64,000 nucleotides of DNA from Eretmocerus hayati. Taxonomy: Eukaryota > Arthropoda > Insecta > Hymenoptera > Aphelinidae. The stretch is taken from the NCBI GenBank assembly GCA_029851415.1, contig CM056743.1, positions 126,386,305 through 126,450,304 on the forward strand, read 5' to 3'. The translations under genes and the position numbers were made by a program. Positions 3,131-27,824 of this stretch are shown piece by piece. The notes below the pieces were generated by a model that was not told where the DNA came from, did not search any database, and worked only from the letters and a program-made list of their open reading frames with translations. How positions within the stretch are numbered: position 1 is the first letter of the stretch; the number at the start of each line of letters is the position of its first letter.

Positions 3131-3134
3131 ACAG
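3131..3134. repeat. Target-site duplication, left copy (ACAG)
   Basis: ACAG directly precedes the left LTR terminus TGTGACGTCC. The identical ACAG directly follows the right LTR terminus ACGTTACA at 17523-17526. A 4-bp duplication is what a Ty3/gypsy integrase normally produces, and it shows the element is bounded and complete. Confidence 0.9.
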
Positions 3135-3652
3135 TGTGACGTCCAAGATGCGCTTATAGTTTTGAGCCAGAGAAAATTACTCTAGGGCTCGGGAATCCCT
3201 TAAAGAGATTTATCGCGGTAACGGGTGTGAAATCGGCTCAATAGCCGATGCTTCGAGTCGCGGGGCGAACTGGCTTGCGGTAGAAACTGTTTTCCGATAT
3301 TTCCCTGCGCCAAATTCAAAAAACTAGACTGGTCGGCCGAAAATCCGATCGATACGTTGGCGTAATAGAAACCCGAAACTGAACGGGTATATTACCGACG
3401 CAAAATTTCTTTTAGGAATAATAGACGGTGACTTGGGATCTGTTCTTCAAAAATCAAAAATAAGTCCTAAAATTTCAATACGAGAGTCAATTACAAGTCA
3501 AGATTACTAGTTCCCGCATGAGCAACCGAAAGGAATATTCTGTACGGGAATAAACAAGGAATGGGCCTCGAACTGGTTCCCAAATGAGAAACTCGAGTTT
3601 CTAAGGTGTCCGTACGATAGAAAAAAAAAATCCCCCGCGATCCCGGTCTAAG

Positions 3653-4025
3653 GTTCCTGTATAAGGAACAAATTTCGAGGTTCCTGTATAAGGAACAAGT
3701 AAAATTGAAATTTGTCAGAGCCCCTGTATGAGGAACAATTCTTCAAGGTTCCTGTATAAGGAACAACTGAGGTTAAATTTTGTCAAAGTTCCTGTATGAG
3801 GAACAATTTTTCAAGGTTCCTGTATGAGGAACAAGTAGGATTAAAATTTCTCAAGGTTCCTGTATGAGGAACAAATAAATGACCAATTCTCAACGTTCCT
3901 GTATAGGAATAAATAAACGACAAGTTTTCAAGATTCCTGTATAAGGAATGACATAAAAGATAGCTATAGTTATTCCTGTAATAAGGAACAAATGGGTAAA
4001 TTTGCAAGATTCCTGTATGCAGAAC
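3653..4025. repeat. Array of 11 short palindromes in the 3' LTR
   Basis: Eleven units of the form GTTCCTGTATAAGGAAC, with variants GTATGAGG and TATAGG, recur every 26-40 bp. Each unit is an imperfect palindrome (GTTCCT...AGGAAC) and could be a dimeric protein-binding site in DNA or a small hairpin in the transcript. The right LTR carries ten units; the missing one is the main length difference between the LTRs. Confidence 0.85.
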
Positions 4026-4189
4026 AATTAATCAAAAGCTCTAGTGGCACCCGAAAGGAGCGCGAAAATGCATACTCAAAAGGAAATAAATTAAGTTTTC
4101 TCTTACTTTTATTTTCTTCTCGATGTGTTGAGAAGAAAATGACCCTGGGTAGACGAAGTGTAGCGGTGAATTTTTGAGGGAGTCCAACC

Positions 4190-4372
4190 TTCGGCACGGA
4201 GCACGGGTGACCTTGGTGTAGTATTGGTAGCCAGGACCTTGGCTGCGACGGGCCGGCGGCGAATTCTCGAGGGTGCCTCACCTTCAGCAGGAAGCACAGG
4301 TGGCCTTGGTGTGGTATTGGTGGCCAGGACCTTGGCTGCGACGGGCCGGCGGCGAATTCTCGAGGGCGCCGC
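4190..4372. repeat. Tandem duplication of about 105 bp within the 3' LTR
   Basis: The block CTTGGTGTAGTATTGGTAGC ... GCGAATTCTCGAGG is followed by a second, slightly diverged copy (CTTGGTGTGGTATTGGTGGC ... GCGAATTCTCGAGG). Both copies contain GACGGGCCGGCGGCG. The same pair is present in the 5' LTR at about 16147-16329. Function is unknown; it could be duplicated enhancer sequence. Confidence 0.8.
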
Positions 4373-5564
4373 TGGTTCGGTCAGGCGCCTCGTAATGATT
4401 CCGCTCAGGGGTTGCGAAATCAGTAAATGCAACTGACAACAGCACCCCAAGGTAGAATCCTGAATGCGGCCGCACGGCTGACGAATCTCTTGGAATATCG
4501 ACTACGGGAAAGGGCGCACACTAAAGTACTGGTCGTCCGTAAAAGATATTCTCTCGCTTTCAAAAATAAGAGAGACTCGACGGCCTTCACCAGCTTCGGG
4601 CTTTCCAACTACGGGAGAAAGGCGCACACTCAAGTACTGCTCAACCGTAGTGGGATCGCTTTCGACGTCCGAAGCTTGAGTGACGAAGCGGCGACAATGG
4701 CTGTTGAAGGCAGAAGAAAAGAACGTTCGAAATGCCTCGTGCCACGGAGAGGGAAGGTCTGCTGTGAGCGACTTCCCTGCACCGACCTCCTCGCCGTCTC
4801 ATCGTGGCCCTGTATAAGGTGAGGGCGCGGACGTCGGAGAGAGACCTGGTCAAGTTTTTCCCTCGCTGGCTGGATTTTGTGCTTCAAGTATCTGGTTTGA
4901 TCGTCGTATTTCCTTTTTGAATCGCTGTGTCTTAGTCAACCCTTGGTCATTTCCCTTCTCATATTATATCCAAAAGGTTAATACATAGAAATTGATTTTT
5001 CTGCGCCGTAAGAGCTAAATATTATGCACTTAAGATTAGGTTACTTCAACAGCTGTATGAGTCTTGTTGTCTTATTCTATATTGTTTTACAAAGGTATAT
5101 CTTATTGTTGTACAACTTATTGTTAAACATTACATCTTAGACTACTTCCTATCAGTAAAGTCTTACATAGCTTAATTTATTAGGGTTTAGTGATTAAAAC
5201 ATGTGAAGATTATTGCCTCGGTAGGCTGCGTTATCCTTGCATCTTACATATCGTGGTGTAATTGCCTATATCTAGGGCACGGACGTTGGAGAGAGACCGC
5301 AGTGCTCTTTCCCGTCGGGAACTTTGTGCCTTACATTAATTAAAAACTTTTCTTATTTTACTCACGAACAATTATAATGGTTTTTTTTTCTATTATTATG
5401 ATTAAAAATATATATATATTTTTTTTTTTTTTTCTTTAGAGTTGATTATTTATTCTTACGTGTTCTATCTATTTTGACGGCTCAATTGACGGTTAATTGC
5501 TACGGCATTCCATCAAAAAGGGAACAAAACAAAAAAAAAAAAAAAAAACGGCGCCGACGTTACA

Positions 5565-5572
5565 CCCCCCTT
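5565..5572 (-). promoter_or_regulatory. Polypurine tract
   Basis: On the minus strand AAGGGGGG abuts the first base of the 3' LTR (TGTAACG). This is the expected position and composition for the plus-strand primer of reverse transcription. Confidence 0.85.
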
Positions 5573-5670
5573 GTTAAACGATTGCCGGAGGTTATGGAAT
5601 AATTTCAGGCAATCGCAAGTAGGGCGTGGGCTGAGCCGGCGGACTACATATAAGATCACTCAGTCGCCTC

Positions 5671-8600
5671 TCAAACTTCGTCTCGGGTCATCCTCCCGTT
5701 CAGATGGGAGATTCTCAATCTGTTGGCATGTACTATTTTAGGCTTATTCTTTATTTCTATCTTGTAGTTACTTTTACCTAATACCTCGAGCACCATGTGC
5801 GGGCCCGAGTAGTGATCTCCAAATTTTCCCGGCTTCGGGCCCTTCTGCAAAAACACGTAATCCCCCGTTTTCAGGCTAATGGGATTTATCCGCCTATCAA
5901 AATATTTCTTGGCACGGATCTTGGAGCTCAATAAATAGTCGTAAGCTATTTTGCGGATCCCTACTAGTCGCGTTACCAGGTTTTGAATATAGCCCTGATA
6001 CGTGGGGAGGAGGTCTTGTTCACGAAGAGCAGCCGCTGACGGTAGACGTGCCAATCTTCCGTGAACTATCTCAAAGGGGGTATGCTTCGTGCTTTCGTGG
6101 ACACATGTATTGTAGTTCAGGCAGGCGATCTCAACCCATGAGTCCCAGTCCTGGACCTTGCTCGCGTACTGTTTCAGGAATTCAGCGAGTACGTGGTGGG
6201 AACGCTCCAAACTTCCGTTACTTTCCGCATGAAAAGCGGTGGATTTTATTTGACGAATGCGGAACCTCTTAGCTACCCTTTGCATTAATTTGCTTAGGAA
6301 ATTTCTACCTTGGTCAGTCAATATTACACGAGGAGCGCCATATACGCATATACATCTTTTCACAAATGCATCGGCGATTGTGGCTGCTGTAGCGTCTGGG
6401 AGAGGCACGGCTATACAATATTTCGACAATTGGTCTTGCATGGTTAATATAAACTGATTTCCTGATTCGGTTTTATCGAGCGGTCCTACGATGTCAAGCG
6501 CTATTTTGTCAAAAACTGTGCCTGGCGTGTCGGTTATTACCATAGGTTGCTTGGTTTTGACACGCACCAATTTTTTTAATTGGCATTCTAGGCACTGTTG
6601 AATCCGGCGTTGAATATCATGTTTCATATTTTCCCAATGGTATGCTTGTCGTATCCGGTTGTAGGTTTTGGATACACCACGATGGCCGCCGATTGGGGAC
6701 GTATGCAGTTCATAAAATACGTCATCTCTATCCTTCTCAGGGACATATTTCAACGTGCCCTTACAGATTATTATTTTAATCATCGTACTTTTGAAGACTG
6801 TATCTATTAGGTATATTATGTCCTCCCAGTTGACTCCGAGTATTTCTTTACTTTTAGCTAAACTTATTTGGCATATCCCTTTTTCTAAAAGTATTTCTCT
6901 TAATCTTAATAATGCTCTATATACATAATTCTTAATTATTATGGGCGATTCTTCTTCCTTGCCCTTTACGCACAGGGCGAAATAAAATTTACCCGAGGAT
7001 CGTTTTATTTCAGCGACCTCTCGCAGGCGGTGGTTGACACTCGTTGGGATTTTAGCCAGTTCGGTTAATTTCCTAGCCCCTTCATCACAAGGAGAGCCTA
7101 ATTCATCGACGAAAAATGCAACATTATCTTCTCTATAAGATAACAATTCCTTCGTCTCTACCCGACTGGTTTCGTCCTCGAGGTCGGAAATGTCGGCCAT
7201 CAGACTCAGGTCGCTGGCTGCTCGAGAGTTATCGTCTCCAAGCTCGTTCTCACCCCTAGGTTCGCCAGATCCTGACCCAGAATAGAGATCATCCATATCA
7301 CCTGCTCCTTGTTTTGAGGGAGTCGGATTTGGGTCGGGGGTGGGTGGATGGGCTGCCGGATCAGCTGGCTGCGACGTTATTGCCTTAGTTTGTCTTCTCG
7401 TGATTGCGTTAACGAGCTCAGTGGGTTGGTCTTCTCGCGGTTCTATGGGATTTCGAGAGAGGGCGTCAGCATGAGTGTTACCTTTAGCTGGAGAATATTT
7501 TACTTCGAAAGAGTACTCCATTAGTTTTAACCTCCATTTGAGTACTCGTGTGTTTATGTCTGCTGTTTTCATCCATATCAAAGGCTGGTGATCAGTAATA
7601 ACCGTGAAGGTTTTGCAAAATAGATATAGGCGGAAGATTTTAACTGAGTAGACTACGGCTAACATTTCTCGCTCATAAGTACTATAATTTAGCTCCGGGC
7701 CCCGGAGCACTCTCGATGTATATGCTATTGGCCTATCTTTACCCGTGTCGTCGTCGAGTTGGGACAGGATACCCGCAATGCAAAATCCTGACGCATCGGT
7801 GGTGATTCGGTAAGATTGATCTAGCCTAGGGAACATCAAACAGGGGGCCGTACACAGCTTGATTTTCAACAAATCAAATGCTGCCTGGGTTTCGTCAGTC
7901 CAGACGAAATCTTGATCTTTCTGAAGGAGCTTGGTCAGAGGTTTCGCAGTTTTTGCGAAACCTTGAATAAACCGCCTATAATAGCCTGCTAAACCTAAAA
8001 ATTGCCTCACGTTTTTAGCATTCGTCGGCCGCGGGAACTCTCTTACTGCCGCTACCTTGCTTGGATCGGGGTTAAGGCCGTTTTTGTTGATGACATGACC
8101 GAGGTACGAAACTTCACGTTTAAGTATTTCACATTTGTCGGGTTCTAGTACAAATTTTGCTTTACGCAGCCTTTCCATAACTGCTCTAAATAAATCATTG
8201 TGGCCTTCTAGCGTATCCGAAAATATAACAATGTCGTCCATAAAAGCGAAAACGCCGTTGTTAATTAAATCCGAGAGGGTAATTGATATCGCTCTTTGCC
8301 ACTCTACTCCAGCGTTACGTAAGCCAAATGGCATTTTCAAATATTCGTAATGCGATGTAGACGTACTGAAGGCCGTCAGGTGTTTAGACTCTTCTGCTAA
8401 TTTTATCTGAAAGAATGAGTTTTTACAGTCGATTACCGTGAAATATACGGCTTTTCCGAGCTGATCGAATATATCTTGGATATTCGGGATGGGGTACGAC
8501 ATGGGAACCGTGATTTCGTTCAAGGGGCGAAAATCCACGACCACCCGCCAGCGCGGTTTGCCTGAGGAATCCGGTTTCTTTGGGACGCACAGTAAACTAG

Positions 8601-9966
8601 AGTTGTAACTACTCCTAGATTTCCTTATGATCCCTTGCCGTTCCATTTCTAACACTTGTCTCTCTACCTCCTCCTTGAGGGCATGGGGTAGTCTATATTG
8701 CTTCACGTTGATAGGCCTATCGTGTATGATGTGTATTTTGTGTTCTACGATATCAGTTACTGGGAGTTCGTCTCCCTTCAAGAAAAATCTGTCGTGGTTT
8801 TCTGCGATTAATTTTTCCGCGTGAGATCTTTCTTCGCCCTCGAGGTGATCCAAACGGACTATTTTCAGAAGCTCGTTTACCCGGTATTCATCGCGTGCCT
8901 CCTTGCCCTTGCCTAGAGGGTCTTCACCTTCGTATTTTGTATCGTCACCTGACTTACAATTTTCGCTTCTCGGTTCGGTAGGTTCCTCTTGAATAGAACT
9001 TACCGATTGAGGGGGCATAACAGTGTACGTGTGATTGGTTTGATAGTTACACGCGCATTCAGCAGACCTCTTTGTCAATATTATATCGACCCCATTTACG
9101 TTTAAGAGTTCCCTACCAAAATCGATAATGGCCTGGTGTTTGGACAGGAAACTAGCTCCTATAATTCCTTCGGCGGGTATCAAAAATTCATCCGGCACTA
9201 CGTGGAATTCAACCCAATTATTCATCATGTAAACTGGGGCTGTACCCAAGGTATTTATTGGAACGTTACCGACTCCTGTTAGTTGAATAGAGCTGGACGT
9301 GTTTAATAGAGTCGGATCTTGCAACATTTTGCGTTTGATGATATTTCCTTCCGCACCCGTATCGATCAGAAATTGGCCATTAACTTCGCGGTTTTTGCCA
9401 ATGAAATTGAAGTACAAGAGAGGACTTTGTTTAGAGACCCATACCGCGTTGTATATACCGGCGGCGTGTTTTGAGCCTTGAATGAACTTGAATTTTGATG
9501 CTCCAATCGTTAACGTATTAGTCTTGAAATTCAACACTCCGCCGGCGTCAACGAGGAATCTCATTCCTATTATTCCATCATGCGGCATGTGGATAGAGTC
9601 GTCTAGTACGTGAAATTTTACCGCGAATTTCGTAAATTTGATTCTAGTGGTACCTACCGTTGGAATTTTATTCTCAGTTATTCCTTGAATATTGACCGTT
9701 TCTTCTAAATTAATCTCCTCGTCAATCGGTAGCACCGAGATTTTTATAAGATTACCTTGGCTACCTGAGTCAATCATTAAGCTTATTACCTTATCGTGAT
9801 ATTTAAAACGAAGAGCCGGTATGTGCGCGGCGCAAACTAGTCCATGGGTATCAACTCTTTGAGAAGCTCGTCCATCGTCGCTGTGTTCATCGAGCGCGTC
9901 GGTTGGATGGGTGCCTCCCTCGTCGCGCTCGAACCCGAGGCACCCTGTCCATTTCCCGACCTCCAA
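5671..9966 (-). CDS. pol: pol: tandem aspartic proteases, reverse transcriptase, RNase H, integrase
   Basis: The frame is 1431 codons and has no ATG at its 5' edge; it opens inside the end of gag and is entered by -1 frameshifting. Residues are numbered from the frame's start. Two retropepsin-like domains come first: DSG at 66-68 with GIIG at 131, then DTG at 202-204 with GIIG at 267. The DxG-to-GIIG distance is 65 in both. The reverse transcriptase spans about 400-680, with motif A aspartate D513 and FMDD at 575-578 in place of the usual YxDD. RNase H follows, with D724, E767, D792 and D834 as likely active-site residues. Integrase has an HHCC zinc motif (H1088, H1095, C1125, C1128) and a DD35E triad (D1158, D1218, E1254), then a GPY/F-like tail. 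All catalytic residues are present and no stop interrupts the frame, so the copy may be functional. The RT-to-integrase linker (about 840-940) is acidic and proline-rich. Confidence 0.97.
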   Translation of the reverse strand: MEVGKWTGCLGFERDEGGTHPTDALDEHSDDGRASQRVDTHGLVCAAHIPALRFKYHDKVISLMIDSGSQGNLIKISVLPIDEEINLEETVNIQGITENKIPTVGTTRIKFTKFAVKFHVLDDSIHMPHDGIIGMRFLVDAGGVLNFKTNTLTIGASKFKFIQGSKHAAGIYNAVWVSKQSPLLYFNFIGKNREVNGQFLIDTGAEGNIIKRKMLQDPTLLNTSSSIQLTGVGNVPINTLGTAPVYMMNNWVEFHVVPDEFLIPAEGIIGASFLSKHQAIIDFGRELLNVNGVDIILTKRSAECACNYQTNHTYTVMPPQSVSSIQEEPTEPRSENCKSGDDTKYEGEDPLGKGKEARDEYRVNELLKIVRLDHLEGEERSHAEKLIAENHDRFFLKGDELPVTDIVEHKIHIIHDRPINVKQYRLPHALKEEVERQVLEMERQGIIRKSRSSYNSSLLCVPKKPDSSGKPRWRVVVDFRPLNEITVPMSYPIPNIQDIFDQLGKAVYFTVIDCKNSFFQIKLAEESKHLTAFSTSTSHYEYLKMPFGLRNAGVEWQRAISITLSDLINNGVFAFMDDIVIFSDTLEGHNDLFRAVMERLRKAKFVLEPDKCEILKREVSYLGHVINKNGLNPDPSKVAAVREFPRPTNAKNVRQFLGLAGYYRRFIQGFAKTAKPLTKLLQKDQDFVWTDETQAAFDLLKIKLCTAPCLMFPRLDQSYRITTDASGFCIAGILSQLDDDTGKDRPIAYTSRVLRGPELNYSTYEREMLAVVYSVKIFRLYLFCKTFTVITDHQPLIWMKTADINTRVLKWRLKLMEYSFEVKYSPAKGNTHADALSRNPIEPREDQPTELVNAITRRQTKAITSQPADPAAHPPTPDPNPTPSKQGAGDMDDLYSGSGSGEPRGENELGDDNSRAASDLSLMADISDLEDETSRVETKELLSYREDNVAFFVDELGSPCDEGARKLTELAKIPTSVNHRLREVAEIKRSSGKFYFALCVKGKEEESPIIIKNYVYRALLRLREILLEKGICQISLAKSKEILGVNWEDIIYLIDTVFKSTMIKIIICKGTLKYVPEKDRDDVFYELHTSPIGGHRGVSKTYNRIRQAYHWENMKHDIQRRIQQCLECQLKKLVRVKTKQPMVITDTPGTVFDKIALDIVGPLDKTESGNQFILTMQDQLSKYCIAVPLPDATAATIADAFVKRCICVYGAPRVILTDQGRNFLSKLMQRVAKRFRIRQIKSTAFHAESNGSLERSHHVLAEFLKQYASKVQDWDSWVEIACLNYNTCVHESTKHTPFEIVHGRLARLPSAAALREQDLLPTYQGYIQNLVTRLVGIRKIAYDYLLSSKIRAKKYFDRRINPISLKTGDYVFLQKGPKPGKFGDHYSGPHMVLEVLGKSNYKIEIKNKPKIVHANRLRISHLNGRMTRDEV

Positions 9967-11321
9967 TTCTCATTCATTTGTCTCTTACGGCATTCCTCGA
10001 CCGTGTGTCCCTTGTTCTTGCAATACCGACATTCCGGGATTCTGGTTGCGTTGTTACGAGGACAACCCGCCGACGAGTGTCCAAACTGGCCGCAAGATTG
10101 ACACGCTTCGTCCGCTCTTTTCGCTTGGTCCGAACCGCGAAGGAATTTTGGACACATTTTTGCTCCATGACCCGTTTGGTGACACAATTGACATGCGGAT
10201 ATAGAAGTCTGAGCCATTTGATTTTGAAGTTTGAAACACGTCTCCGCTGAGTGACCCCGGCGGTCACAAAATTGGCAGACTGGGGTGTCGTTGGCCTTGA
10301 GCTGAAAGCAAGCGTCGGCTCTGTGGCCCGGCCGGTTACAGATTTGACAGTTTTGCTGGGCTCGCTGCTTCGCGGAGCAGTCTGCTATGGCATGCCCAGG
10401 ACGCTTACAATAATTGCAATACCCATCCGTTTGACGTCTAGCATTACATCGCGTTGCGTCGTGGTCGCCGGATTGACAAATTTGGCAAGCGTACACTAGT
10501 TTCCTAGTGTCTCGGTTTCTTGCCATATTCTCAGAGTGCCCTTCCGCTTCACGTAAGGACCTTTTTGCTTCTAGTTTACGCTCTATGCCGATAGCGTTCT
10601 GGATAATGCTAGAGATGTCGTCATCTTGCTCCAGTTTAGCATCGATCTCGGGCTTGAGTCCATTACGGAAACACTCGATCGTATTTCTATTTATGTCGGC
10701 TCTAAATTCATCATCAATTCGCCCGGCATTCACACGTTTAGCTTCTACGATCCTGCGAGCGATGTCACGTACCCTATTCGCGAACGCGATCACCGTTTCG
10801 TTATCTCGTTGGTACTCATGGCCCATTTCGCCTAAGAGTTGATGAACGGTTTTCGCCGGAGCGTATATGGTTTTAATGTAGTCCTTCAATGATTCTACGG
10901 TGGTAAAAGATTGCCCTTGGATCGCTGTTCGCGCTTCACCTATCAGTTTGCTACGTAGTAAACGAGTGAGGTTACTTTCGTGTGTCGGGCCTACCATTTC
11001 CTTGGCTTCGTCACATCCCTCGAAAAACACGCTAAGGGGCGGTCTTTTGCCGTCAAATTCTGGCACTACCTTTAAGGCGTCCTTCAACGTTACTTGAGCC
11101 ATTTCTACTTGGTGAACTACGGGAATTTCGAGAGGAATTTCTACTTGTATTGCTAAATCAGCCGCCGCAGGTGCTTCTCGGATCGTTATATCACTTTCGT
11201 CTTCTTCTGAGGTTTCTTCTTCAGGTAATGGTGCGGGTGGAAAAGGGTAAAATGCGTCTACCTCTTCGTTGGCACTATTACTATTCCTCGCTAAATTTCT
11301 TGTAATTCTTCGCCCGTTCAT
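9837..11321 (-). CDS. gag: gag: capsid protein with seven CCHC zinc knuckles
   Basis: The protein is 494 aa and starts at an ATG (11321). An acidic N-terminus (about 30-50) precedes a retrotransposon-gag-like helical region (about 75-250). Seven zinc knuckles follow at residues 279-292, 302-315, 325-338, 349-362, 377-390, 407-420 and 431-444, each C-x2-C-x4-H-x4-C. Most gypsy Gags have none to three, so seven is exceptional. The product should form the particle and bind genomic RNA. Its start overlaps the end of ORF-E by 41 nt. Its last 130 nt overlap pol, and the -1 frameshift signal lies within that overlap, so Gag and Gag-Pol share this start. Confidence 0.95.
   Translation of the reverse strand: MNGRRITRNLARNSNSANEEVDAFYPFPPAPLPEEETSEEDESDITIREAPAAADLAIQVEIPLEIPVVHQVEMAQVTLKDALKVVPEFDGKRPPLSVFFEGCDEAKEMVGPTHESNLTRLLRSKLIGEARTAIQGQSFTTVESLKDYIKTIYAPAKTVHQLLGEMGHEYQRDNETVIAFANRVRDIARRIVEAKRVNAGRIDDEFRADINRNTIECFRNGLKPEIDAKLEQDDDISSIIQNAIGIERKLEAKRSLREAEGHSENMARNRDTRKLVYACQICQSGDHDATRCNARRQTDGYCNYCKRPGHAIADCSAKQRAQQNCQICNRPGHRADACFQLKANDTPVCQFCDRRGHSAETCFKLQNQMAQTSISACQLCHQTGHGAKMCPKFLRGSDQAKRADEACQSCGQFGHSSAGCPRNNATRIPECRYCKNKGHTVEECRKRQMNENWRSGNGQGASGSSATREAPIQPTRSMNTATMDELLKELIPMD
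9890..9957 (-). promoter_or_regulatory. Programmed -1 ribosomal frameshift signal (gag-pol), slip site plus H-type pseudoknot
   Basis: The slip heptamer G GGA AAU lies at 9957-9951, in the register required by the gag frame; slipping back one base enters the pol frame. A 5-nt spacer (9950-9946) follows. Stem 1 is 9 bp and perfect: GGGTGCCTC (9945-9937) with GAGGCACCC (9917-9909). Stem 2 is 9 bp and perfect: TCGAGCGCG in the stem-1 loop (9932-9924) with CGCGCTCGA downstream (9898-9890). Loops are 4, 6 and 10 nt. Slip sites of the XXXYYYZ type with a downstream pseudoknot drive -1 frameshifting in many retroviruses. The gag and pol frames are offset by exactly -1 here. Confidence 0.88.
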
Positions 11322-11988
11322 TAATGGCGCTTGTATTATAGTAGTTCCAGTATAAGTGGGATATAAAGCGTTCTACTCGTGGGCCTTGACACAAGGTCTT
11401 TGAGTGTACTACTAATTTCGCCCACTGGAATACCTTGTTGGCAGGTATCTTGACGTGGTCTGTTTGATAACACTTCTTTTCCTGCACACAATATAATAAC
11501 TTACTGATTAATCTATTTAATTGAAATATTCTTCTTACTTTACCGATTTTACAATTTCCCGGTAACAAAGAGGGATCTATATGGAGTCCGTAATCTAAGT
11601 CAACAAGGACGTGTCTATCTAGGTAAAATCCTTCGTCGTCTTGTTTTAAAGAAAGTCCTAAATGCTCACTACCAAGTAATCGAATCGCAGCTGACTTCAA
11701 ACCTGCGTACGTGATTCTGTGCAAACCAAAGAAAGTTGTTGGGCTTATTTTACCGTCAGTTGTCTGTAAGTAACTCACTTTACCAAATTCGCTTTCGTTA
11801 ACCTTAATCTCTCCGGAGTGTAGATTATCATGATAAAAATATACCTTAATTTTACAATATTTATCTGGCTTCGATTCTAATACATCTAAAATTTTATATG
11901 CCTCGAAAAAATGGTCATCGAAAGTTCGTTCTTCAGCTAACTCTTGCAAAGAAGAAATGAACTTACTCTTGGTTTCGACCGCTTGCAT
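11281..11988 (-). CDS. ORF-E, accessory protein of unknown function, paralogue of ORF-A
   Basis: The 235-aa protein starts at ATG 11988, 23 nt before the ORF-D stop, and overlaps the gag start by 41 nt. I do not recognise a family. It shares an ordered pattern with ORF-A: an F-D-x-H-F start (residues 23-27), K-V-Y-F-Y-H-D ending at 54, K-I-S-P-T-T-F-F-G at 80-88, Y-L-D-R at 122-125 and a later F-x-x-x-x-x-I helix. Spacings agree within one residue. There is no signal peptide or membrane segment, so it is probably cytosolic or nuclear. The intact frame in a young element suggests it is maintained. Its position immediately before gag and the overlap suggest co-translation with the structural genes. 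Confidence 0.85.
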   Translation of the reverse strand: MQAVETKSKFISSLQELAEERTFDDHFFEAYKILDVLESKPDKYCKIKVYFYHDNLHSGEIKVNESEFGKVSYLQTTDGKISPTTFFGLHRITYAGLKSAAIRLLGSEHLGLSLKQDDEGFYLDRHVLVDLDYGLHIDPSLLPGNCKIGKVRRIFQLNRLISKLLYCVQEKKCYQTDHVKIPANKVFQWAKLVVHSKTLCQGPRVERFISHLYWNYYNTSAINERAKNYKKFSEE

Positions 11989-12277
11989 TGATGTTTAGAT
12001 TATGAAACCTATCTTCTAACCTCTGCAATGACCTATGATGATCGTATAGGTAATTTTCAGTCGCAATAACTGAAACAGCTAAATCTGCTTCGTCTTCTTC
12101 TAAAGCTTTAGCTTTCCTAAATATTTCAGAAATTTTCTTTTCAGCTTCTTCTACCCTAATACGTAAAATTCTAGTTAAAACTAATAATTGCTCGTTTTGC
12201 TTCTGGACTTGTCGGTAATCTCGTTCCAGTTTGTTCACCAGTTTTTGACAGTTACAGCAACGTTGCTCGGCGCTCAT
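11963..12277 (-). CDS. ORF-D, small coiled-coil accessory protein
   Basis: The 104-aa protein starts at ATG 12277, 4 nt after the stop of ORF-C. It is mostly charged and helical (rich in E, K, R, L) and probably forms a coiled coil over residues 10-95. A cysteine cluster CCNC lies at 7-10. The segment R-V-E-E-A-E-K-K-I-S-E-I resembles R-I-R-K-A-E-I-K-I-D-E-L in ORF-C, hinting that C and D are duplicates, but low-complexity helices can converge. No family is recognised. A role in oligomerisation, for example with other element proteins, is only a guess. Confidence 0.75.
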   Translation of the reverse strand: MSAEQRCCNCQKLVNKLERDYRQVQKQNEQLLVLTRILRIRVEEAEKKISEIFRKAKALEEDEADLAVSVIATENYLYDHHRSLQRLEDRFHNLNINASGRNQE

Positions 12278-12281
12278 TGGT

Positions 12282-12536
12282 CTACAAATGCTCAGCTGCT
12301 TGCTTTTGCACCTTTCTTAACCTATTTCTGAATTCTGGAATATACTGTTGCGCTGGTCTGATAGATTCTTTCATCCATTCTCTACTACGTTCTAATTCGT
12401 CTATTTTAATTTCGGCTTTTCTAATTCTAACTTCTACTTTTTCCAAAAATTTTAAAGAAGAACGTAGTGTTTTGTCCAATCTAATTAACTCACTTTTAGC
12501 AATATAGCTGAATTCCTTTAGTTCAAAATCGTTCAT
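12282..12536 (-). CDS. ORF-C, small coiled-coil accessory protein
   Basis: From the first ATG (12536) the frame gives 84 aa; it stays open upstream to about 12575 but without an earlier ATG. The sequence is highly charged, with leucines and isoleucines spaced as in an amphipathic helix, and no Cys or membrane segment. The stop TAG is separated from the ATG of ORF-D by only 4 nt, an arrangement compatible with reinitiation. No family is recognised. Confidence 0.7.
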   Translation of the reverse strand: MNDFELKEFSYIAKSELIRLDKTLRSSLKFLEKVEVRIRKAEIKIDELERSREWMKESIRPAQQYIPEFRNRLRKVQKQAAEHL

Positions 12537-12725
12537 GGGCCAATTATATCGAAAATTGTAAAAATTAGAGTTCACACAGCTAAATCTGCTACTGGATCTT
12601 TGATATTGATGATATAATTCAATAATGCAAACTTGTTGATAGCGTTTTGGGAACAGAAAGGATAATTCTAGAATATTTTTGTTCTCTCTCTATATTACAA
12701 GTAACTAATCAAATTACATTAGGAG

Positions 12726-12998
12726 TTATAATTCTGGAAATCTTAATTTAAAACAATAAGGACAGAAATAAGGAGTTTCTTTTACTTGACACTCTTCACA
12801 CTTAATGACACTGGTAGACACTATCTTTTTCGGAGGGTCGAATATCACTCCCTCGAAAATGTCAAATTCATTTGTAACTTTTGGACGAGTCCCTCTCCTC
12901 CGCAGTGGTACCACAAGGGCTGGCTCCTTGCTGGCTTCTTGATGTCGCGACTTCTTCTCCTTGAACCACTGCCTTAGCTTTTGCTGCTGCTGGCTGGG
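12726..12998 (-). CDS. Zinc-ribbon tail, separate frame overlapping the end of ORF-B
   Basis: The frame is open from just after a TGA at 13001-12999 and lies +1 relative to ORF-B, overlapping its last 130 nt. It has no ATG. It begins P-S-Q-Q-Q and is basic in the middle. It ends with C-E-E-C and C-P-Y-C separated by eight residues, a C-x2-C...C-x2-C zinc-ribbon-like pattern. The lack of an ATG means it is probably a 3' coding exon or a frameshift extension joined to ORF-B. A short direct repeat shared with the ORF-B 5' region (GACCCAGCCAGCAGCA) puts both copies in the same peptide phase. Confidence 0.5.
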   Translation of the reverse strand, partial: PSQQQQKLRQWFKEKKSRHQEASKEPALVVPLRRRGTRPKVTNEFDIFEGVIFDPPKKIVSTSVIKCEECQVKETPYFCPYCFKLRFPEL

Positions 12999-14337
12999 TC
13001 ACAACTATCGTTTTCTTCGGAGCTGTAGGTACAATTTCTTCGTGAGTTGCCCGCGCAATCACTACCGTAGGGTCGTGTTTAGGAATACGGACCGGCGGTA
13101 ACGTTGGTTGCACTGCGTATTTGCCTCCAGATTTTAATTGGACGCTACACTTGGTATTGTCGCTCTGTCTCTCCGAGGGTTGGTTCACTGTACTCCGTTT
13201 TGTAGAGGGACGCCGAGGCTTCCCTAAAGCTCGCTCGCACCCCCTGCGGAAAACTTCTAATTTGGAAACCTTAACGGTGGTTCTTGGTTTCTTGGCCAGC
13301 TGATTTCCAAGAGGCAGCCCTCGCTTGTTCGTGTCTGGACTATCACTCGTCGTTGAGGTCGGTGGGAGGTCTCCAGATGACGTGCAAGTTAGCAGATCCT
13401 CCTCTGCGTGCTCTGACCGGCTGGTAGGTGATGACTCTTGAGCGCTGGCTTGCTTGGGCCAGGTTTCGTAACCTTCTCGGATTTGGGACAGGTCTGACGC
13501 TGAAAGCTGGCCTGTTGATGGTTCTCCTAATTCTTGAGATTCTTCGGATCCTGTGGATGATGCGCCTCGAAGCGTCGGAGCTGGTGGAGGCGGTGTCGAC
13601 AGGAACTCTCTGGAGTCTCGCTCCGGTGTGTCGCTGGGTAACGGGCTGATTGGTCGCCTGGACAAAAGTTCTCCGAAGATAAGGTCGCCCAGACCACCTT
13701 CTTGTTGCTGGGAGTCTCCAGATGATCCGCCTGGTGCTGGAGAACCTGTAGCTTGGAGCCCCTTCGACGGGTCTAGGTAGACCAGAAGCGGCGGCGTTGA
13801 GTATTGCTCGCCACCTCGCTTGCCCTGCGATTCCCCTGCGTTGACAGGCGACAAAGGCTGCGTAAGAACGGGCGGAGCTGGCGGTCCTTCGTTGGCTGCT
13901 TTGTCGCGTCCGACGGCGCTGAATCTTTGGGGTGGCGGGTAGTGATTCTGATGTTCCTTCCGGTTCGGAGCCTGATGAGTAGGCTGAGCCGGAAGCTGCT
14001 CCTGAATCCGAAGACGTGGTGAGAGTGGTTCTGCTTCGATGAAAATGGGCGTATAATCGCCCTTGAGTTTTGCTAGTTGTTCCGCAAAAACTTGGAACTC
14101 AGTTTTGCGGAAACAATCCAACAGCGTCAATTTGATGTTGGTCTTGTAGGTTGCGTTGAACTTCCTCTGCAGGAAGGCCACGTAGGGTTTTGCTTTTCTT
14201 CTTTGCTGCTGGCTGGGTCCGTTTTTGTAACGATACACAGGAAACAAGGTCACTAAAGTGGAACAAGGAAGAACAAATACTCTAGAATATATCCCAAAAG
14301 CTGCAACGTATTTAAAAATTTCCAGATAACTTATCAA
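12868..14337 (-). CDS. ORF-B, long proline/serine-rich accessory ORF without an ATG
   Basis: The frame is 489 codons from its first near-cognate TTG and contains no methionine codon anywhere. The likely coding start is an exon beginning at 14252, after a sequence resembling a 3' splice site (TTCTTCCTTGTTCCACTTTAG). From there about 460 codons remain. A basic, ordered N-terminal segment of about 70 residues is followed by a long disordered region rich in P, S, G, Q and E, and a basic C-terminus with a KKPR cluster that could be nuclear-targeting. No enzyme motif is visible. The absence of stops over 1.4 kb, with protein-like composition, argues for real coding. It follows the ORF-A stop by 12 nt in another frame. 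Confidence 0.65.
   Translation of the reverse strand: MISYLEIFKYVAAFGIYSRVFVLPCSTLVTLFPVYRYKNGPSQQQRRKAKPYVAFLQRKFNATYKTNIKLTLLDCFRKTEFQVFAEQLAKLKGDYTPIFIEAEPLSPRLRIQEQLPAQPTHQAPNRKEHQNHYPPPQRFSAVGRDKAANEGPPAPPVLTQPLSPVNAGESQGKRGGEQYSTPPLLVYLDPSKGLQATGSPAPGGSSGDSQQQEGGLGDLIFGELLSRRPISPLPSDTPERDSREFLSTPPPPAPTLRGASSTGSEESQELGEPSTGQLSASDLSQIREGYETWPKQASAQESSPTSRSEHAEEDLLTCTSSGDLPPTSTTSDSPDTNKRGLPLGNQLAKKPRTTVKVSKLEVFRRGCERALGKPRRPSTKRSTVNQPSERQSDNTKCSVQLKSGGKYAVQPTLPPVRIPKHDPTVVIARATHEEIVPTAPKKTIVVTQPAAAKAKAVVQGEEVATSRSQQGASPCGTTAEERDSSKSYK
14253..14278 (-). promoter_or_regulatory. Candidate 3' splice site for ORF-B
   Basis: The minus strand has a pyrimidine-rich tract ending CCACTTTAG, followed by TGACC. 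The ORF-B reading frame puts the first exon bases TG as codon positions 2 and 3, exactly as at the ORF-A site. Prediction from sequence only. Confidence 0.55.
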
Positions 14338-14348
14338 AGATCCATTAC

Positions 14349-14930
14349 CTAAATATTATTATTTCGATCAGACCTGCTTGTATTAGTCAAAACTTGGAGC
14401 CTTCTTTTCCATTCATAAAAATCCCGTCTGAAGATTTTATTTCCTTTAAATCTATATGTCGTTCTATACCGCCTTTCATGGAAATGAGTAATTATTTCTT
14501 GGATTTTATCTACTATTTCAAATATGAAATCTAAATTATCGAACCCAGGAATTCTCAACCTTAACAATGGACAATCTAAGATTATTGCAGGGTCTAAATT
14601 TTCTCTGTCTATATAGATATCATTAAGTTCATCAAACTTAAAGAAAACGCTCCAAGCTTTGGAAGCTAATAACTCTTGCAGATATTTCCAAGTTTCTCGG
14701 AGGACCTTGAGGTCAGCCCCAAAATAAACCGGTGAGCTGATCTTTTGGTTGGACAGCAAACAATACGGGTACTCGGGTGATCCAGTAACCGCTACACGTC
14801 TACCGGTAGAAATGTAGTCGTGCCAAATGTAAATCTTCCGGTCGACGTCGCCAATATCAATGTAGCTTCTGAGGTACTCTCTACATACACGAAAATGAAC
14901 GTCAAACAGCGTTTTCAACGTATGCGTCAC
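14349..14930 (-). CDS. ORF-A, accessory protein of unknown function, paralogue of ORF-E, without an ATG
   Basis: The frame is 193 codons, begins at a GTG and contains no methionine codon. An in-frame TAA lies 9 nt upstream inside a pyrimidine tract. It therefore needs a non-AUG start or, more likely, an upstream exon joined at 14929. The shared pattern with ORF-E is F-D-x-H-F (residues 9-13), K-I-Y-I-W-H-D ending at 38, K-I-S-S-P-V-Y-F-G at 63-71 and Y-I-D-R at 106-109. The C-terminus is basic. There is no signal peptide, transmembrane segment or catalytic signature I recognise. It is the first gene after the leader. Confidence 0.7.
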   Translation of the reverse strand: MTHTLKTLFDVHFRVCREYLRSYIDIGDVDRKIYIWHDYISTGRRVAVTGSPEYPYCLLSNQKISSPVYFGADLKVLRETWKYLQELLASKAWSVFFKFDELNDIYIDRENLDPAIILDCPLLRLRIPGFDNLDFIFEIVDKIQEIITHFHERRYRTTYRFKGNKIFRRDFYEWKRRLQVLTNTSRSDRNNNI

Positions 14931-14960
14931 TAAAAGAAATTAAGGGAAAATATTTTTAGA
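14930..14960 (-). promoter_or_regulatory. Candidate 3' splice site for ORF-A
   Basis: The minus strand reads CTAAAAATATTTTCCC and then TTAATTTCTTTTAG, followed by TGACG. This gives a branch-point-like CTAAA, a long pyrimidine tract and AG. The exon would begin TGAC, like the ORF-B site, and in the same codon phase. The likely donor upstream was not identified. Confidence 0.55.
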
Positions 14961-15118
14961 AATCTTGTACCAGAAATATTTCTTGGAAAATAAAATTTTT
15001 CAAGAATTTTCTCAAAAATTTCCAAAAAATTTTTCACTGTTGGAATTTTGTGGTATTCCCGCAACGATTTGATACGGTTTATCTCTCTAAAGCAAATCCC
15101 TCCGGGGCCTCCATTTCT
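14961..15118 (-). other. 5' leader of the retrotransposon
   Basis: About 160 nt separate the 5' LTR from the ORF-A acceptor. The leader contains the primer-binding site and a short ATG frame of 11 codons whose ATG (15114-15112) overlaps that site. The remainder is A/T-rich and likely holds packaging signals, but nothing specific is visible. Confidence 0.5.
15093..15113 (-). promoter_or_regulatory. Candidate primer-binding site (tRNA-Gln-like)
   Basis: Five nt inside the 5' LTR the minus strand reads TGGAGGCCCC, then GGAGGGATTTG. TGG complements a tRNA CCA end. TGGAGG matches the tRNA-Gln acceptor end and ATTTG resembles its T-arm, but the middle does not match a canonical tRNA-Gln. The tRNA identity is tentative. 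Confidence 0.55.
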
Positions 15119-17522
15119 TGTGACGTCCAAGATGCGCTTATAGTTTTGAGCCAGAGAAAATTACTCTAGGGCTCGGGAATCCCTTAAAGAGATTTATCGC
15201 GGTAACGGGTGTGAAATCGGCTCAATAGCCGATGCTTCGAGTCGCGGGGCGAACTGGCTTGCGGTAGAAACTGTTTTCCGATATTTCCCTGCGCCAAATT
15301 CAAAAAACTAGACTGGTCGGCCGAAAATCCGATCGATACGTTGGCGTAATAGAAACCCGAAACTGAACGGGTATATTACCGACGCAAAATTTCTTTTAGG
15401 AATAATAGACGGTGACTTGGGATCTGTTCTTCAAAAATCAAAAATAAGTCCTAAAATTTCAATACGAGAGTCAATTACAAGTCAAGATTACTAGTTCCCG
15501 CATGAGCAACCGAAAGGAATATTCTGTACGGGAATAAACAAGGAATGGGCCTCGAACTGGTTCCCAAATGAGAAACTCGAGTTTCTAAGGTGTCCGTACG
15601 ATAGAAAAAAAAAATCCCCCGCGATCCCGGTCTAAGGTTCCTGTATAAGGAACAAGTAAAATTGAAATTTGTCAGAGCCCCTGTATGAGGAACAATTCTT
15701 CAAGGTTCCTGTATAAGGAACAACTGAGGTTAAATTTTGTCAAAGTTCCTGTATGAGGAACAATTTTTCAAGGTTCCTGTATGAGGAACAAGTAGGATTA
15801 AAATTTCTCAAGGTTCCTGTATGAGGAACAAATAAATGACCAATTCTCAACGTTCCTGTATAGGAATAAATAAACGACAAGTTTTCAAGATTCCTGTATA
15901 AGGAATGACATAAAAGATAGCTATAGTTATTCCTGTAATAAGGAACAAATGGGTAAATTTGCAAGATTCCTGTATGCAGAACAATTAATCAAAAGCTCTA
16001 GTGGCACCCGAAAGGAGCGCGAAAATGCATACTCAAAAGGAAATAAATTAAGTTTTCTCTTACTTTTATTTTCTTCTCGATGTGTTGAGAAGAAAATGAC
16101 CCTGGGTAGACGAAGTGTAGCGGTGAATTTTTGAGGGAGTCCAACCTTCGGCACGGAGCACGGGTGACCTTGGTGTAGTATTGGTAGCCAGGACCTTGGC
16201 TGCGACGGGCCGGCGGCGAATTCTCGAGGGTGCCTCACCTTCAGCAGGAAGCACAGGTGGCCTTGGTGTGGTATTGGTGGCCAGGACCTTGGCTGCGACG
16301 GGCCGGCGGCGAATTCTCGAGGGCGCCGCTGGTTCGGTCAGGCGCCTCGTAATGATTCCGCTCAGGGGTTGCGAAATCAGTAAATGCAACTGACAACAGC
16401 ACCCCAAGGTAGAATCCTGAATGCGGCCGCACGGCTGACGAATCTCTTGGAATATCGACTACGGGAAAGGGCGCACACTAAAGTACTGGTCGTCCGTAAA
16501 AGATATTCTCTCGCTTTCAAAAATAAGAGAGACTCGACGGCCTTCACCAGCTTCGGGCTTTCCAACTACGGGAGAAAGGCGCACACTCAAGTACTGCTCA
16601 ACCGTAGTGGGATCGCTTTCGACGTCCGAAGCTTGAGTGACGAAGCGGCGACAATGGCTGTTGAAGGCAGAAGAAAAGAACGTTCGAAATGCCTCGTGCC
16701 ACGGAGAGGGAAGGTCTGCTGTGAGCGACTTCCCTGCACCGACCTCCTCGCCGTCTCATCGTGGCCCTGTATAAGGTGAGGGCGCGGACGTCGGAGAGAG
16801 ACCTGGTCAAGTTTTTCCCTCGCTGGCTGGATTTTGTGCTTCAAGTATCTGGTTTGATCGTCGTATTTCCTTTTTGAATCGCTGTGTCTTAGTCAACCCT
16901 TGGTCATTTCCCTTCTCATATTATATCCAAAAGGTTAATACATAGAAATTGATTTTTCTGCGCCGTAAGAGCTAAATATTATGCACTTAAGATTAGGTTA
17001 CTTCAACAGCTGTATGAGTCTTGTTGTCTTATTCTATATTGTTTTACAAAGGTATATCTTATTGTTGTACAACTTATTGTTAAACATTACATCTTAGACT
17101 ACTTCCTATCAGTAAAGTCTTACATAGCTTAATTTATTAGGGTTTAGTGATTAAAACATGTGAAGATTATTGCCTCGGTAGGCTGCGTTATCCTTGCATC
17201 TTACATATCGTGGTGTAATTGCCTATATCTAGGGCACGGACGTTGGAGAGAGACCGCAGTGCTCTTTCCCGTCGGGAACTTTGTGCCTTACATTAATTAA
17301 AAACTTTTCTTATTTTACTCACGAACAATTATAATGGTTTTTTTTTCTATTATTATGATTAAAAATATATATATATATTTTTTTTTTTTTTCTTTAGAGT
17401 TGATTATTTATTCTTACGTGTTCTATCTATTTTGACGGCTCAATTGACGGTTAATTGCTACGGCATTCCATCAAAAAGGGAACAAAACAAAAAAAAAAAA
17501 AAAAAACGGCGCCGACGTTACA
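15119..17522 (-). repeat. 5' LTR (2404 bp)
   Basis: This is the second copy of the LTR. It should contain the promoter and the start of the element transcript on the minus strand. I saw no clear substitutions against the 3' LTR by eye. Differences are the missing 27-bp palindrome unit near 15636 and lengths of A, T and TA runs near 17340-17510. Confidence 0.95.
15636..15982. repeat. Array of 10 short palindromes in the 5' LTR
   Basis: Same units as at 3653-4025, one fewer. In element sense they lie about two thirds of the way through the LTR, so depending on the transcription start they may be in the transcribed leader. Confidence 0.85.
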
Positions 17523-17526
17523 ACAG
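17523..17526. repeat. Target-site duplication, right copy (ACAG)
   Basis: Follows the right LTR end directly and matches 3131-3134. Confidence 0.9.
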
Positions 17527-19921: not shown

Positions 19922-22900
19922 CCCATGTGAAAAACGTATGACTTGCCAATGACTTGTGTATAGCTTGTGAATAGACAGAAATGGGCAGCGTTTATCAAGC
20001 TATTGACAAGCTATTCACAAGTCATTGGCAAGTCATTGAATGTAGTCCTACGAAATTTATCAGTGAAGATGCAGTTATGTCTGGGCCTCACTGCTGCAAC
20101 TTCGGCTCGGGTCCAGGGGCAACCTCGGCGCATCCACCCACACTGAGCGTGTGTGGGAGGCCCGGGAGATCGTTGGAGATTGCGGAAAACGTCTAATGTG
20201 CTTGGAAAATACACCCGCGATGTTTTCGTTGTCGATGCGGGGCCTCTGGCTCACTTCGGCACGCGTGTCCTCCACCTATACATCATGCGTGGGTGGAAGG
20301 CTTGCGCGGGAGGTTAAAATATCTCAGAAAAGGTTCGGAGCCCTCGTGGATGGTCATAGTGAGACTCAACACATGTCTGAGCCCCAGCTTTTCTCAGCAA
20401 GCATGCACCTCTGATATGATGTGTTCGCCCACTGATTGCGTAGGCAGATGAATTGAGGGGGCGGGTGAGGGAGGCAAAAATCGTGTTAACGGCAAAAACT
20501 GCAAGTTTGCCGGGAAAATAGACCTTGTGTGAAAATCAAGACGATTATCAGTGTGATAACGTGGTATTTTTTATGAATACTATTCTTGGGAAAATTTCGT
20601 TCTAAGTTACATATTTTTACCATAAAAATTGGTGTGATAAGTGGATCATTTTTATTGAGTTTTATCTCGGTTTTATTCAAGATGATCATAATATAACCAA
20701 TGAATTTCAAATTTCACCTGTGGTGTCTCGCGCAATGGAAAAACACAACAAATGAGAAGAGAAAGCGCTCGCCATGAGTGAGAAAGACGATTGAAAGTTA
20801 TCGACGAATTTTGGTGATTAGAGTACTTATGAGTCATTCTTTTTAATATCGCCAGGTTTTGTGGCGGGGGGTCAGGGATTTTTCTGTAACTTTAGGTACA
20901 TGTTGTATATGATAGAAGAAGATGAAAAGCACAGTTTTTAGGTCCCGAAAGTCATCCGCGCGAGTTTGGCGCCCTATTCTCGTTTTCAAAATTCGTGAAA
21001 AATTCGATTTTTCAACTTTTTGATTGATTTCTCACCAGTATAGAACCCGGTAAAACAATTATCCAAGACACATATTTCGACGTAAAATGAGCTGAATTTT
21101 ACGAAAAAAATACTCTTAGATCCGTCAAAGGTGAACATAACCTCAAAAAAAGTGGTTTTTTCAGAAAAACCGAATTTTCAAGTCTTAGGCCCTATTTTAT
21201 CTCAATTTTGACATTTTTATCGGATCCCTCGTCAAATTTTACGTCGAAAACCGTTTCCATAAAATTGGGCTGAAGATGGGTTTGGCCACCATAATAACAA
21301 CTTTAGTAGCAGGGTCGTAAAAATAGCGCTAAATTGTTCGTTTCGGGAGGGACACTTATAACACTGGACAACAAAATGTTGGTTCATAAGTAGCGCATTG
21401 ATCAAGCAATGACTTTTTCGTGTATTTTTCGACGCAGAAACCGAATCCGAAACCAGTTTTGCACCTAGACATCGGGAATTTTTTTAAATCGCGAAATACT
21501 GAGCTTCTACAAAACTGCGTTTTTAGCGTTTTTTGATGATTCTGTAGATACATGATTTCGATGGTGCAACCTTGCAGCGGGCTTAGAGCGTACCCAGACT
21601 ATGATTTCTGACGTATTTCGAGCTGCTGAACACGATGGCAGTGGTTTTAGAGGGCTAGCATACGTTCGGAACGAAGGACAAGGTGATTTTTTGAGTTGCT
21701 ATCAGGAGAGTTTGGACAATTTCGCAATCAATCTCAAAGTGCTCACGAAATTGATCAGAAACACCCTTTTGGATCTCACGAGGGCGCATTCTTTTCGTAT
21801 TTGTACACGCAGTGAGGAAAAATATTTGTAATCGCCTAGAAATAGATGAGTAGAATATACGTGTGTTATTCCGAAAAGAAACTTTTGATCTATTCCTGAG
21901 GTAAGCTCAAGCTTTCTCGTAATAAGTCAAAGCAGTTTCCTAGTCTCATGTGCTTCTGAGAACATATAGGTAGCCGTTTGCAACCAGCCCAAGATAGTAC
22001 ATCTGACGCTGAATATTCTTATTCACTCCCTTCCAGAATAGAATCATTGGAGTGCCCACATTAGCTTAAGGTGAAAAACGATGTAACTAGGTTGATGACA
22101 TATTCATGGTATGTCAAGGTACGTTCCGTGACCTAAACCGAGTTTAGGTCTCCGGGACTTCTGATACCGTATCCTAGCAACAAAATGACATTGTTTTAAT
22201 AGTTTGAGTGACTTCTACGTACAAATACTCGAGCTTTGATCCAATACGAGGAGGCTTGAACTCACTCGAGGAATAGATCTCGAAATAGATCAAAAGTTTC
22301 TTTTCGGAATAACACGCGTATATTCTACTCATCTATTTCTAGGTGATTACAAATACTTTTCCCTCACTGCGTGTACAAATACGAAAAGAATGCGCTCTCG
22401 TGAGATCCAAAAGGGTGTTTCTGATCAATTTCGTGAGCACTTTGAGATTGATTGCGAAATCGTCCAAACTCTCCTGATAGCAACTCAAAAAATCAGCTTG
22501 TCCTTCGTTCCGAACGTATGCTAGCCCTCTAAAACCACTGCCATCGTGTTCAGCAGCTCGAAATACGTCAGAAATCATAGTCTGGGTACGCTCTAAGCCC
22601 GCTGCAAGGTTGCACCATCAAAATCATGTATCTACAGAATCATCAAAAAACGCTAAAAACGCAGTTTTTTAGAAGCTCAGTATTTCGCGATTTAAAAAAA
22701 TTCCTGATGTCTAGGTGCAACACTGGTTTCGGATTCGGTTTCTGCGTCGAAAAATACACGAAAAAGTCATTGCTTGATCAATGCGCTACTTATGAACCAA
22801 CATTTTCTTGTCCAGTGTTATAAGTGTCCCTCCCGAAACGAACAATTTAGCGCTATTTCTACGACCCTGCTACTAAAGTTGTTATTATGGTGGCCAAACC

Positions 22901-27820: not shown

Positions 27821-27824
27821 CTTC

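Follow-up and report, generated by a model that had tools for sequence, protein, structure and literature searches.

A conserved pre-gag cassette in an env-less Ty3/gypsy lineage of Eretmocerus hayati, with candidate split-start splicing and a possible virus-type fold

The window analyzed here is a 64,000-nucleotide (nt) stretch of contig CM056743.1 of Eretmocerus hayati, whose published assembly is described in PMC10482854; all coordinates are window positions. At 3135-17522, on the minus strand, the window contains a complete Ty3/gypsy retrotransposon, and an accessory block of frames, named A to E, is located between its 5′ long terminal repeat (LTR) and gag on the same strand. Our analysis revealed that this block is real, that diverged families of the genome share it, and that it is under selection. 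The features are given below in the direction of the element; lengths of proteins are in amino acids (aa), and a slash in a motif marks a predicted splice junction.

17523-17526, minus strand: target-site duplication CTGT (4 bp), 5′ side; second copy at 3131-3134
15119-17522, minus strand: 5′ LTR, 2404 bp, TG...CA; carries the candidate splice donor
16062-16070, minus strand: candidate splice donor AATAAAA/GT(AAG) in the 5′ LTR; its exon would end at 16064
15092-15113, minus strand: probable primer-binding site (TGG...)
14930-14939, minus strand: acceptor-like tract before A, TTTCTTTTAG/TG; exon A would start at 14929
14349-14939, minus strand: open frame A; predicted exon 14349-14929, 192 aa after a putative split start codon; no Met; paralogue of E by profile comparison
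14253-14263, minus strand: acceptor-like tract before B, TTCCACTTTAG/TG; exon B would start at 14252
12868-14355, minus strand: open frame B; predicted exon 12868-14252; no Met; long Pro/Ser-rich region
13343-14098, minus strand: frame B′, 251 aa, basic; overlaps B in another frame
12726-12998, minus strand: zinc-ribbon tail, CxxC...CxxC...KLRFP
12282-12536, minus strand: frame C, 84 aa, coiled-coil-like, own ATG
11963-12277, minus strand: frame D, 104 aa, coiled-coil-like, own ATG
11281-11988, minus strand: frame E, 235 aa, own ATG; predicted fold possibly WIV/NSs-like
9837-11321, minus strand: gag, 494 aa, own ATG
5671-9777, minus strand: pol, 1368 aa; starts 59 nt past gag
5565-5575, minus strand: polypurine tract AACAAGGGGGG, G-rich
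3135-5564, minus strand: 3′ LTR, 2430 bp; one 27-bp repeat unit more than the 5′ LTR

The two LTRs show zero substitutions, their differences being a 27-bp repeat unit and a single base within a run, and CTGT is present on both flanks, as expected from a preliminary description of this DNA that had proposed a complete gypsy element with near-identical LTRs. Each LTR carries an array of short units with GTTCCT...AGGAAC (3653-3948 and 15634-15905), and one 27-bp unit is the sole sizeable difference between them. The assignment to Ty3/gypsy follows from the pol order protease, reverse transcriptase (RT), RNase H, integrase, together with the LTRs, the target duplication, and the polypurine tract. 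Pfam identified RT (399-563), RNase H (626-755), H2C2 (1012-1069), and rve (1095-1177) in pol, and a protease-like region at 128-216 was below the Pfam cut-offs. Gag contains seven CCHC-like knuckles by eye, with a weak Pfam zf-CCHC match. The closest named pol proteins among 7,982 candidates scored are those of Trichogramma kaykai (43-48% identity). A stretch of 16 bases from the probable primer-binding site occurs 35 times in the genome, including in the elements L011, L012, L013, L014, and L020 (L-numbered sequences are stretches fetched from the same genome). Since only 106 nt, containing no open frame, separate pol from the 3′ LTR, the element has no env; the env gene behind pol that characterizes errantiviruses and endogenous retroviruses was not found.

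The five frames and the zinc-ribbon tail that had been described between the 5′ LTR and gag were all found, and they are tightly packed: D starts 4 nt after the C stop, the first 26 nt of E lie within D, and the first 41 nt of gag lie within E. The frames had also been called intact. In the window copy, B and the zinc-ribbon tail are in different frames, whereas L009, L010, and L011 have a single open frame; this copy is thus not wholly intact. Neither A nor B has an in-frame ATG, indicating that they are not ordinary open reading frames (ORFs). The annotated E. hayati protein QAD02_004174 holds frame D and pieces of E letter for letter. In the gene model of this protein, D is spliced to parts of E at donor and acceptor sites that appear good on visual inspection, and this splicing is either an annotation artefact or a real alternative splice. 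In a search of 5.8 billion proteins, which detects only relatives sharing short exact words, no relative of the E/A domain was found outside E. hayati.

The recurrence of the block was examined from both E and gag. E by itself matches 79 places in the genome; many of these are open, at only ~40% identity. Twenty places with an E match were fetched, ~10 kb each, and D precedes E and gag lies behind it in 20/20 of them, with pol behind in 19, C recognizable in 13 (at 25-31% identity in remote copies), and A in 7; in the decayed L013, other sequence intervenes between D and E. The gag search gave 100 matching rows, of which 13 were second pieces, leaving 87 places, the best 87 of 2,507 candidates. 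E is located upstream on the same strand at all of the best 35 of these 87 gag places and within 5 kb upstream at 55/87, and at 28 of the 55 the E and gag matches overlap by 11-37 nt. Conversely, 59/79 E places have one of the 87 gag places behind them. The closest copy, L009, is 99% identical to the window in both E and gag, and identity between the window and L010 is 89% for gag, 86% for E, and 57% for A. The preliminary description had named a block missing from other copies, or a nested insertion unique to this one, as what would speak against its proposal. D before and gag behind E in 20/20 copies, and E before the best 35 of 87 gag places, show that the block is no nested insertion.

The frames are also constrained. 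By the Nei-Gojobori method, with dS near saturation in several pairs, the ratio of nonsynonymous to synonymous substitution (dN/dS) between the window and L010 is 0.20 for A, 0.50 for B, 0.08 for C, 0.30 for D, 0.13 for E, and 0.05 for gag. Of seven other pairs compared for E, one had a dS of zero and one a saturated dS; the remaining five, with finite dS above zero, gave 0.07-0.20. These low ratios indicate that A, C, D, and E are proteins under purifying selection and that B is looser. Recurrence in diverged copies with a dN/dS of 0.08-0.30 (A, C, D, and E) places these frames beyond chance. The earlier reading of a complete gypsy element with an accessory block before gag is thus supported, and the block is conserved and selected.

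A and E belong to one family. BLASTP matched them at 4e-6, and profile-profile comparison gave 95.9%, compared with 0.1-0.3% for shuffled controls; controls with shuffled columns or with D did not exceed 0.3%. These comparisons identify A and E as paralogues. Five further places with weak E matches form a distant clade, with gag recognizable in 3/5 stretches, and encode E-like proteins with hidden Markov model scores of 1e-19 to 3e-17. In L042 and L045, a second E-like protein adjoins the first (2e-10 and 2e-8); a third protein in L045 scores 92.5% against the second and 0.2% against E itself, and the protein ahead of E in L041 scores 31.5% against E. The distant relatives thus carry two or three E-like proteins in a row, and the occurrence of paralogous and tandem proteins shows that the domain multiplies. 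Such multiplication may resemble that of host-facing accessory proteins of viruses. The same clade has cysteine-rich, zinc-ribbon-like proteins before E in L043 (282-779, plus strand), L042 (2979-3500, minus strand), and L044 (525-995, plus strand), and the protein in L043 has a weak C1-domain match (E-value 0.0011, below the cut-off).

The missing start codons of A and B were considered in a set of 18 long pre-C frames from 14 sequences, comprising the two of the window and 16 of a further 24 frames. The set omits the near-copies L009, L012, and L018 and the second or inner frames of L015, L021, and L026; L011, L013, L020, and L024 are outside it, and the acceptors had already been seen before the count was made. 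These frames contain 6 Met in ~6,570 residues, compared with 1.4-1.5% in gag and pol. Within their first 200 nt, 13/18 frames have a pyrimidine tract ending in YAG/TG with the TG in phase with the frame, whereas YAG/TG in phases 1 and 2 was found in 0/18 (background 0.023 per frame). The 13 frames fall into seven families by our grouping and thus do not represent 13 independent events. An exon beginning with TG would need an A from its donor, and the candidate donor in the 5′ LTR would supply it. AAAA/GTGAG is present in L010, L016, and L022, 0.8-1.1 kb upstream of the acceptor, and AAAA/GTRAG precedes the acceptor in four diverged families (4/7 with acceptors), compared with 0.07-0.14 expected per 5.5-kb sequence. 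The donor 9-mer occurs 11 times in 21 sequences, once (L024) with no assigned acceptor. Because A and B lack Met, have in-phase AG/TG acceptors, and are preceded by a candidate donor that would supply the A of ATG, they are probably spliced genes whose start codon is assembled at the junction. Split-start splicing is a prediction that is well supported by sequence features, though unproven.

The candidate donor lies directly behind AATAAA (16064-16070 and 4107-4113), and the two are fused in the window, L016, and L022 (AATAAAAGTRAG). With a donor next to a poly(A) signal, the transcript might be prevented from ending in the 5′ LTR.

All three reading frames of B are poor in ATG, which occurs 34 times compared with 143.5 expected over 13 B frames (L025 excluded). 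Four A frames have 27 against 35 expected, the supposed intron of four elements has 4 against 11.4, 7 against 7.7, 6 against 14.0, and 3 against 6.8, and eight gag and pol frames are near expectation. The scarcity in B fits ribosomes crossing B to reach C, D, E, and gag, and there may be other reasons. The frame B′, which overlaps B, has 251 open codons in the window, 249 in L010, and 210 in L017, each longer than in 500/500 synonymous-codon shuffles; in L016, L019, L023, L026, and L027, B′ is not open beyond such shuffles. Arg and Lys make up 19-20% of B′, and 10% in L017, whose B′ cannot be aligned to that of the window or L010. Between the window and L010, B′ has 53% amino acid identity over 215 residues, and B has 43%. 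B′ thus looks coding.

The fold of E was predicted by AlphaFold2 on 14 relatives and compared with BFVD by Foldseek. The model has a mean predicted local distance difference test score (pLDDT) of 67 and a predicted template modeling score of 0.65, with ten-residue blocks of residues 31 to 130 at a pLDDT of 70-92. Its six best BFVD matches (prob 0.54-0.97) are four named tospovirus NSs proteins, one WIV-domain protein, and one nameless entry, and two more NSs entries stand at ranks 11 and 18. The WIV-domain protein, A0A8K1XY66 of a xinmovirus, matched with prob 0.97 and an E-value of 0.057 over 110 columns, at a root-mean-square deviation of 5.3; the template modeling score is 0.51 by the 104 residues of the target and 0.26 by the 235 of E. 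Since NSs and WIV entries resemble each other, these matches are one observation, not six. Karlin (2024) reportedly described WIV as a domain found in proteins of arthropod viruses, with a probable role in aiding infection. The match of the E model is suggestive, not conclusive, and we think it fairly probable that E is tied to WIV.

The NSs protein of tospoviruses is a suppressor of RNA silencing, and thrips no longer transmit isolates in which NSs is defective (PMC4974542). We infer suppression of the host small-RNA defense as the favored function of the E/A protein; counter-defense is our best guess at its role, on the basis of one borderline fold match. The same match tips the balance, weakly, toward host-defense suppression among the functions at which the preliminary description had guessed.

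Taken together, we propose that the block is a conserved cassette of an env-less gypsy lineage, in which A and B are expressed from RNAs whose splicing creates the start codon, and in which the duplicated E/A protein has a virus-type fold and counters the small-RNA defense; we regard the chances of this whole as evenly balanced. Transcription is assumed to start in the LTR. The LTR donor would end its exon in ...AAAA and be joined to the acceptor of A or B, whose exons begin with TG, giving AAAATG. As the motifs suggest, A or B would be translated only from such a spliced RNA, while C, D, E, gag, and pol would come from an RNA that is longer or spliced in another way, and the E/A protein would counter the host small-RNA defense. 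A bolder version, which we put forward tentatively and hold to be somewhat doubtful, is that an env-less gypsy lineage took up a WIV/NSs-type domain of arthropod viruses, multiplied it before gag, and uses an LTR splice switch that creates a start codon, thus carrying its own silencing suppressor. If true, this would be a retrotransposon with complex-retrovirus regulation, and it would help to account for the gypsy burst and genome growth of E. hayati. According to PMC13116730, LTR elements make up a larger share of this genome than of any other compared there, and its gypsy insertions are the most recent of those in the species that were dated.

Several results weigh against our proposal. The one protein found to touch the block, QAD02_004174, comes from a gene model that places different introns within D and E. 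The remaining 32/87 gag places (41-58% gag identity) showed no E match; E at these places may be too diverged for detection, or missing. Under the rule used, 5/18 frames have no acceptor, and in the closest copy, L009, an acceptor was found for A and none for B. The exact donor is absent from L014/L015 and L027/L028, L026 has the variant AAAGA/GTAAG, and in the L016 family the donor is present in L016 only, not in L019 or L020. Furthermore, 3/11 donor 9-mers sit elsewhere, inside C (window and L009) and at the end of B (L026). As for the fold, the WIV and NSs matches have E-values of only 0.05-0.11, the model of A, though better (pLDDT 78.7), has no WIV or NSs match, and Pfam tospovirus NSs (PF03231) finds nothing in the genome and equally nothing in 14 controls.

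The E/A protein may have a new fold unrelated to WIV, matched by chance in Foldseek. This is the strongest of the alternatives, a real possibility that we still hold to be less probable than a tie to WIV: the E-values near 0.05, the low-confidence model of E, the lack of a match for A, and the lack of any match in the PDB all speak for it, whereas 5/6 of the best BFVD matches are named NSs or WIV, and WIV is, to our knowledge, found in arthropod viruses only.

In a second explanation, A, C, D, and E would assist Gag as structural or assembly partners, in scaffolding or nuclear import, being made polycistronically with gag and having no anti-defense role. C, D, and E lie within a few bases of gag or overlap it, C and D are coiled-coil-like, and E stands beside gag at the best 35 of 87 gag places. 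In contrast, the A/E domain occurs in two or three successive copies in the distant clade, and the identities of E (86%) and A (57%) against gag (89%) between the window and L010 form a pattern more like that of host-facing accessory proteins. We consider this explanation rather unlikely.

Unlikelier still is a cassette for cell-to-cell (soma-to-germline) transmission, in the manner of sORF2 of the Drosophila MDG1 elements, with C and D as a scaffold and A and E as membrane- or capsid-side partners. The pre-gag position and the lack of env are the same as in MDG1 elements (PMC11952523), and a 98-aa ATG frame before C in L020 is strongly hydrophobic (KD19 3.38; element-strand position 3416) and may encode a membrane protein. 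However, hydropathy in the window block peaks (KD19 1.61) ahead of exon B, where no gene is predicted, and the block has no ATGGG (myristoylation) start. Among 55 pre-gag ATG frames of 55-150 aa in 26 sequences, 2 reach KD 1.6, the L020 frame strongly, and neither has MGxxxS/T.

The least probable explanation is that A and B are a 5′ leader or intron making no protein, leaving C, D, and E as the only genes: their frames lack ATG, the dN/dS of B is 0.50, and ATG is scarce in all frames of B and in the supposed intron of 3/4 elements, as in a leader scanned by ribosomes, but A is a paralogue of E with a dN/dS of 0.20, the acceptors are in phase with the frames, and B′ is open past 500/500 synonymous shuffles in three sequences.

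Other features were observed in the genome and the window. L030-L032 (G000 C2, ~144.889-144.900 Mb) are three tandem deletion derivatives, 5137-5138 bp apart, that consist of an LTR and an open A fused to 3′ pol (junction corresponding to window 14208/7371), and L035 is a second deletion derivative (window 14508/7699). Elsewhere in the window are a large nested palindrome at 19938-24347, with arms of 677, 277, and 244 nt that are 97-99% complementary, perhaps a foldback element; an RT fragment at 27794-28702, guessed to be non-LTR (RVT_1 E-value 7.7e-6, below the curated cut-off); an array of 29-bp units in both orientations at 32227-33009; and a satellite of 13-14 copies of ~80-bp units at 39026-40120.

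The preliminary description knew of no animal gypsy element with such a pre-gag gene set, but pre-gag genes are not new to these elements: in the MDG1 group of Drosophila (412, mdg1, Stalker, and blood), two ORFs, sORF1 and sORF2, precede gag, and genes like sORF2 occur widely among the elements of insects (PMC11952523). In that report, sORF1 is nuclear, sORF2 is a FAST-like membrane protein at capsid-rich protrusions, and the MDG1 RNAs show no sign of splicing. Like the E. hayati element, those of the MDG1 group are insect Ty3/gypsy elements that lack env and have small accessory ORFs, under purifying selection, in the stretch from the 5′ LTR to gag (PMC11952523). In contrast, MDG1 has two small ORFs (~110 and ~70 aa), while the E. 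hayati block has five or six frames, two of them without a start codon, and a duplicated 200-aa domain; no membrane helix was found in the window block, nor the short transmembrane FAST-like sORF2 that marks the MDG1 type.

Env-less LTR elements are usually seen as gag-pol only. MDG1 showed that pre-gag genes can make them virus-like, and in the E. hayati lineage the pre-gag cassette is far larger and includes a protein domain that duplicates. Should this domain suppress silencing, it would offer a directly testable case of a retrotransposon acting against the PIWI-interacting RNA and small interfering RNA pathways in a genome enlarged by gypsy bursts (PMC13116730). A split start codon would be an easy means of keeping accessory synthesis apart from that of Gag. 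Seventeen E. hayati RNA-seq libraries exist under PRJNA951478 (PMC10482854).

Complex retroviruses, in general, also join an LTR-anchored donor to alternative acceptors and have overlapping accessory frames; the sites in E. hayati are candidates, its accessory genes stand before gag, the start is apparently split over the junction, and there is no env. Plant Ogre elements have one extra ORF between the 5′ LTR and gag and make use of an intron; they belong to a plant lineage, have only the one ORF, and are likened to the present element by description alone. WIV proteins and tospovirus NSs are the best fold matches of the E model and have arthropod hosts, whereas no sequence-level match was found and A is unmatched; we know of WIV and NSs from viruses and of none in LTR retrotransposons. 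Insect R1 long interspersed nuclear elements (LINEs) carry tobamovirus-like helicase domains (PMC4686597; PMC6338049) and are likewise insect retroelements with a virus-type domain suspected of silencing suppression, although, in the same sources, the element is a LINE and the domain is a fused C-terminal one with sequence-level homology. Pre-gag genes in gypsy elements are thus of a known kind, while the E. hayati cassette is new and larger and probably has a new mode of translation start for two of its genes.

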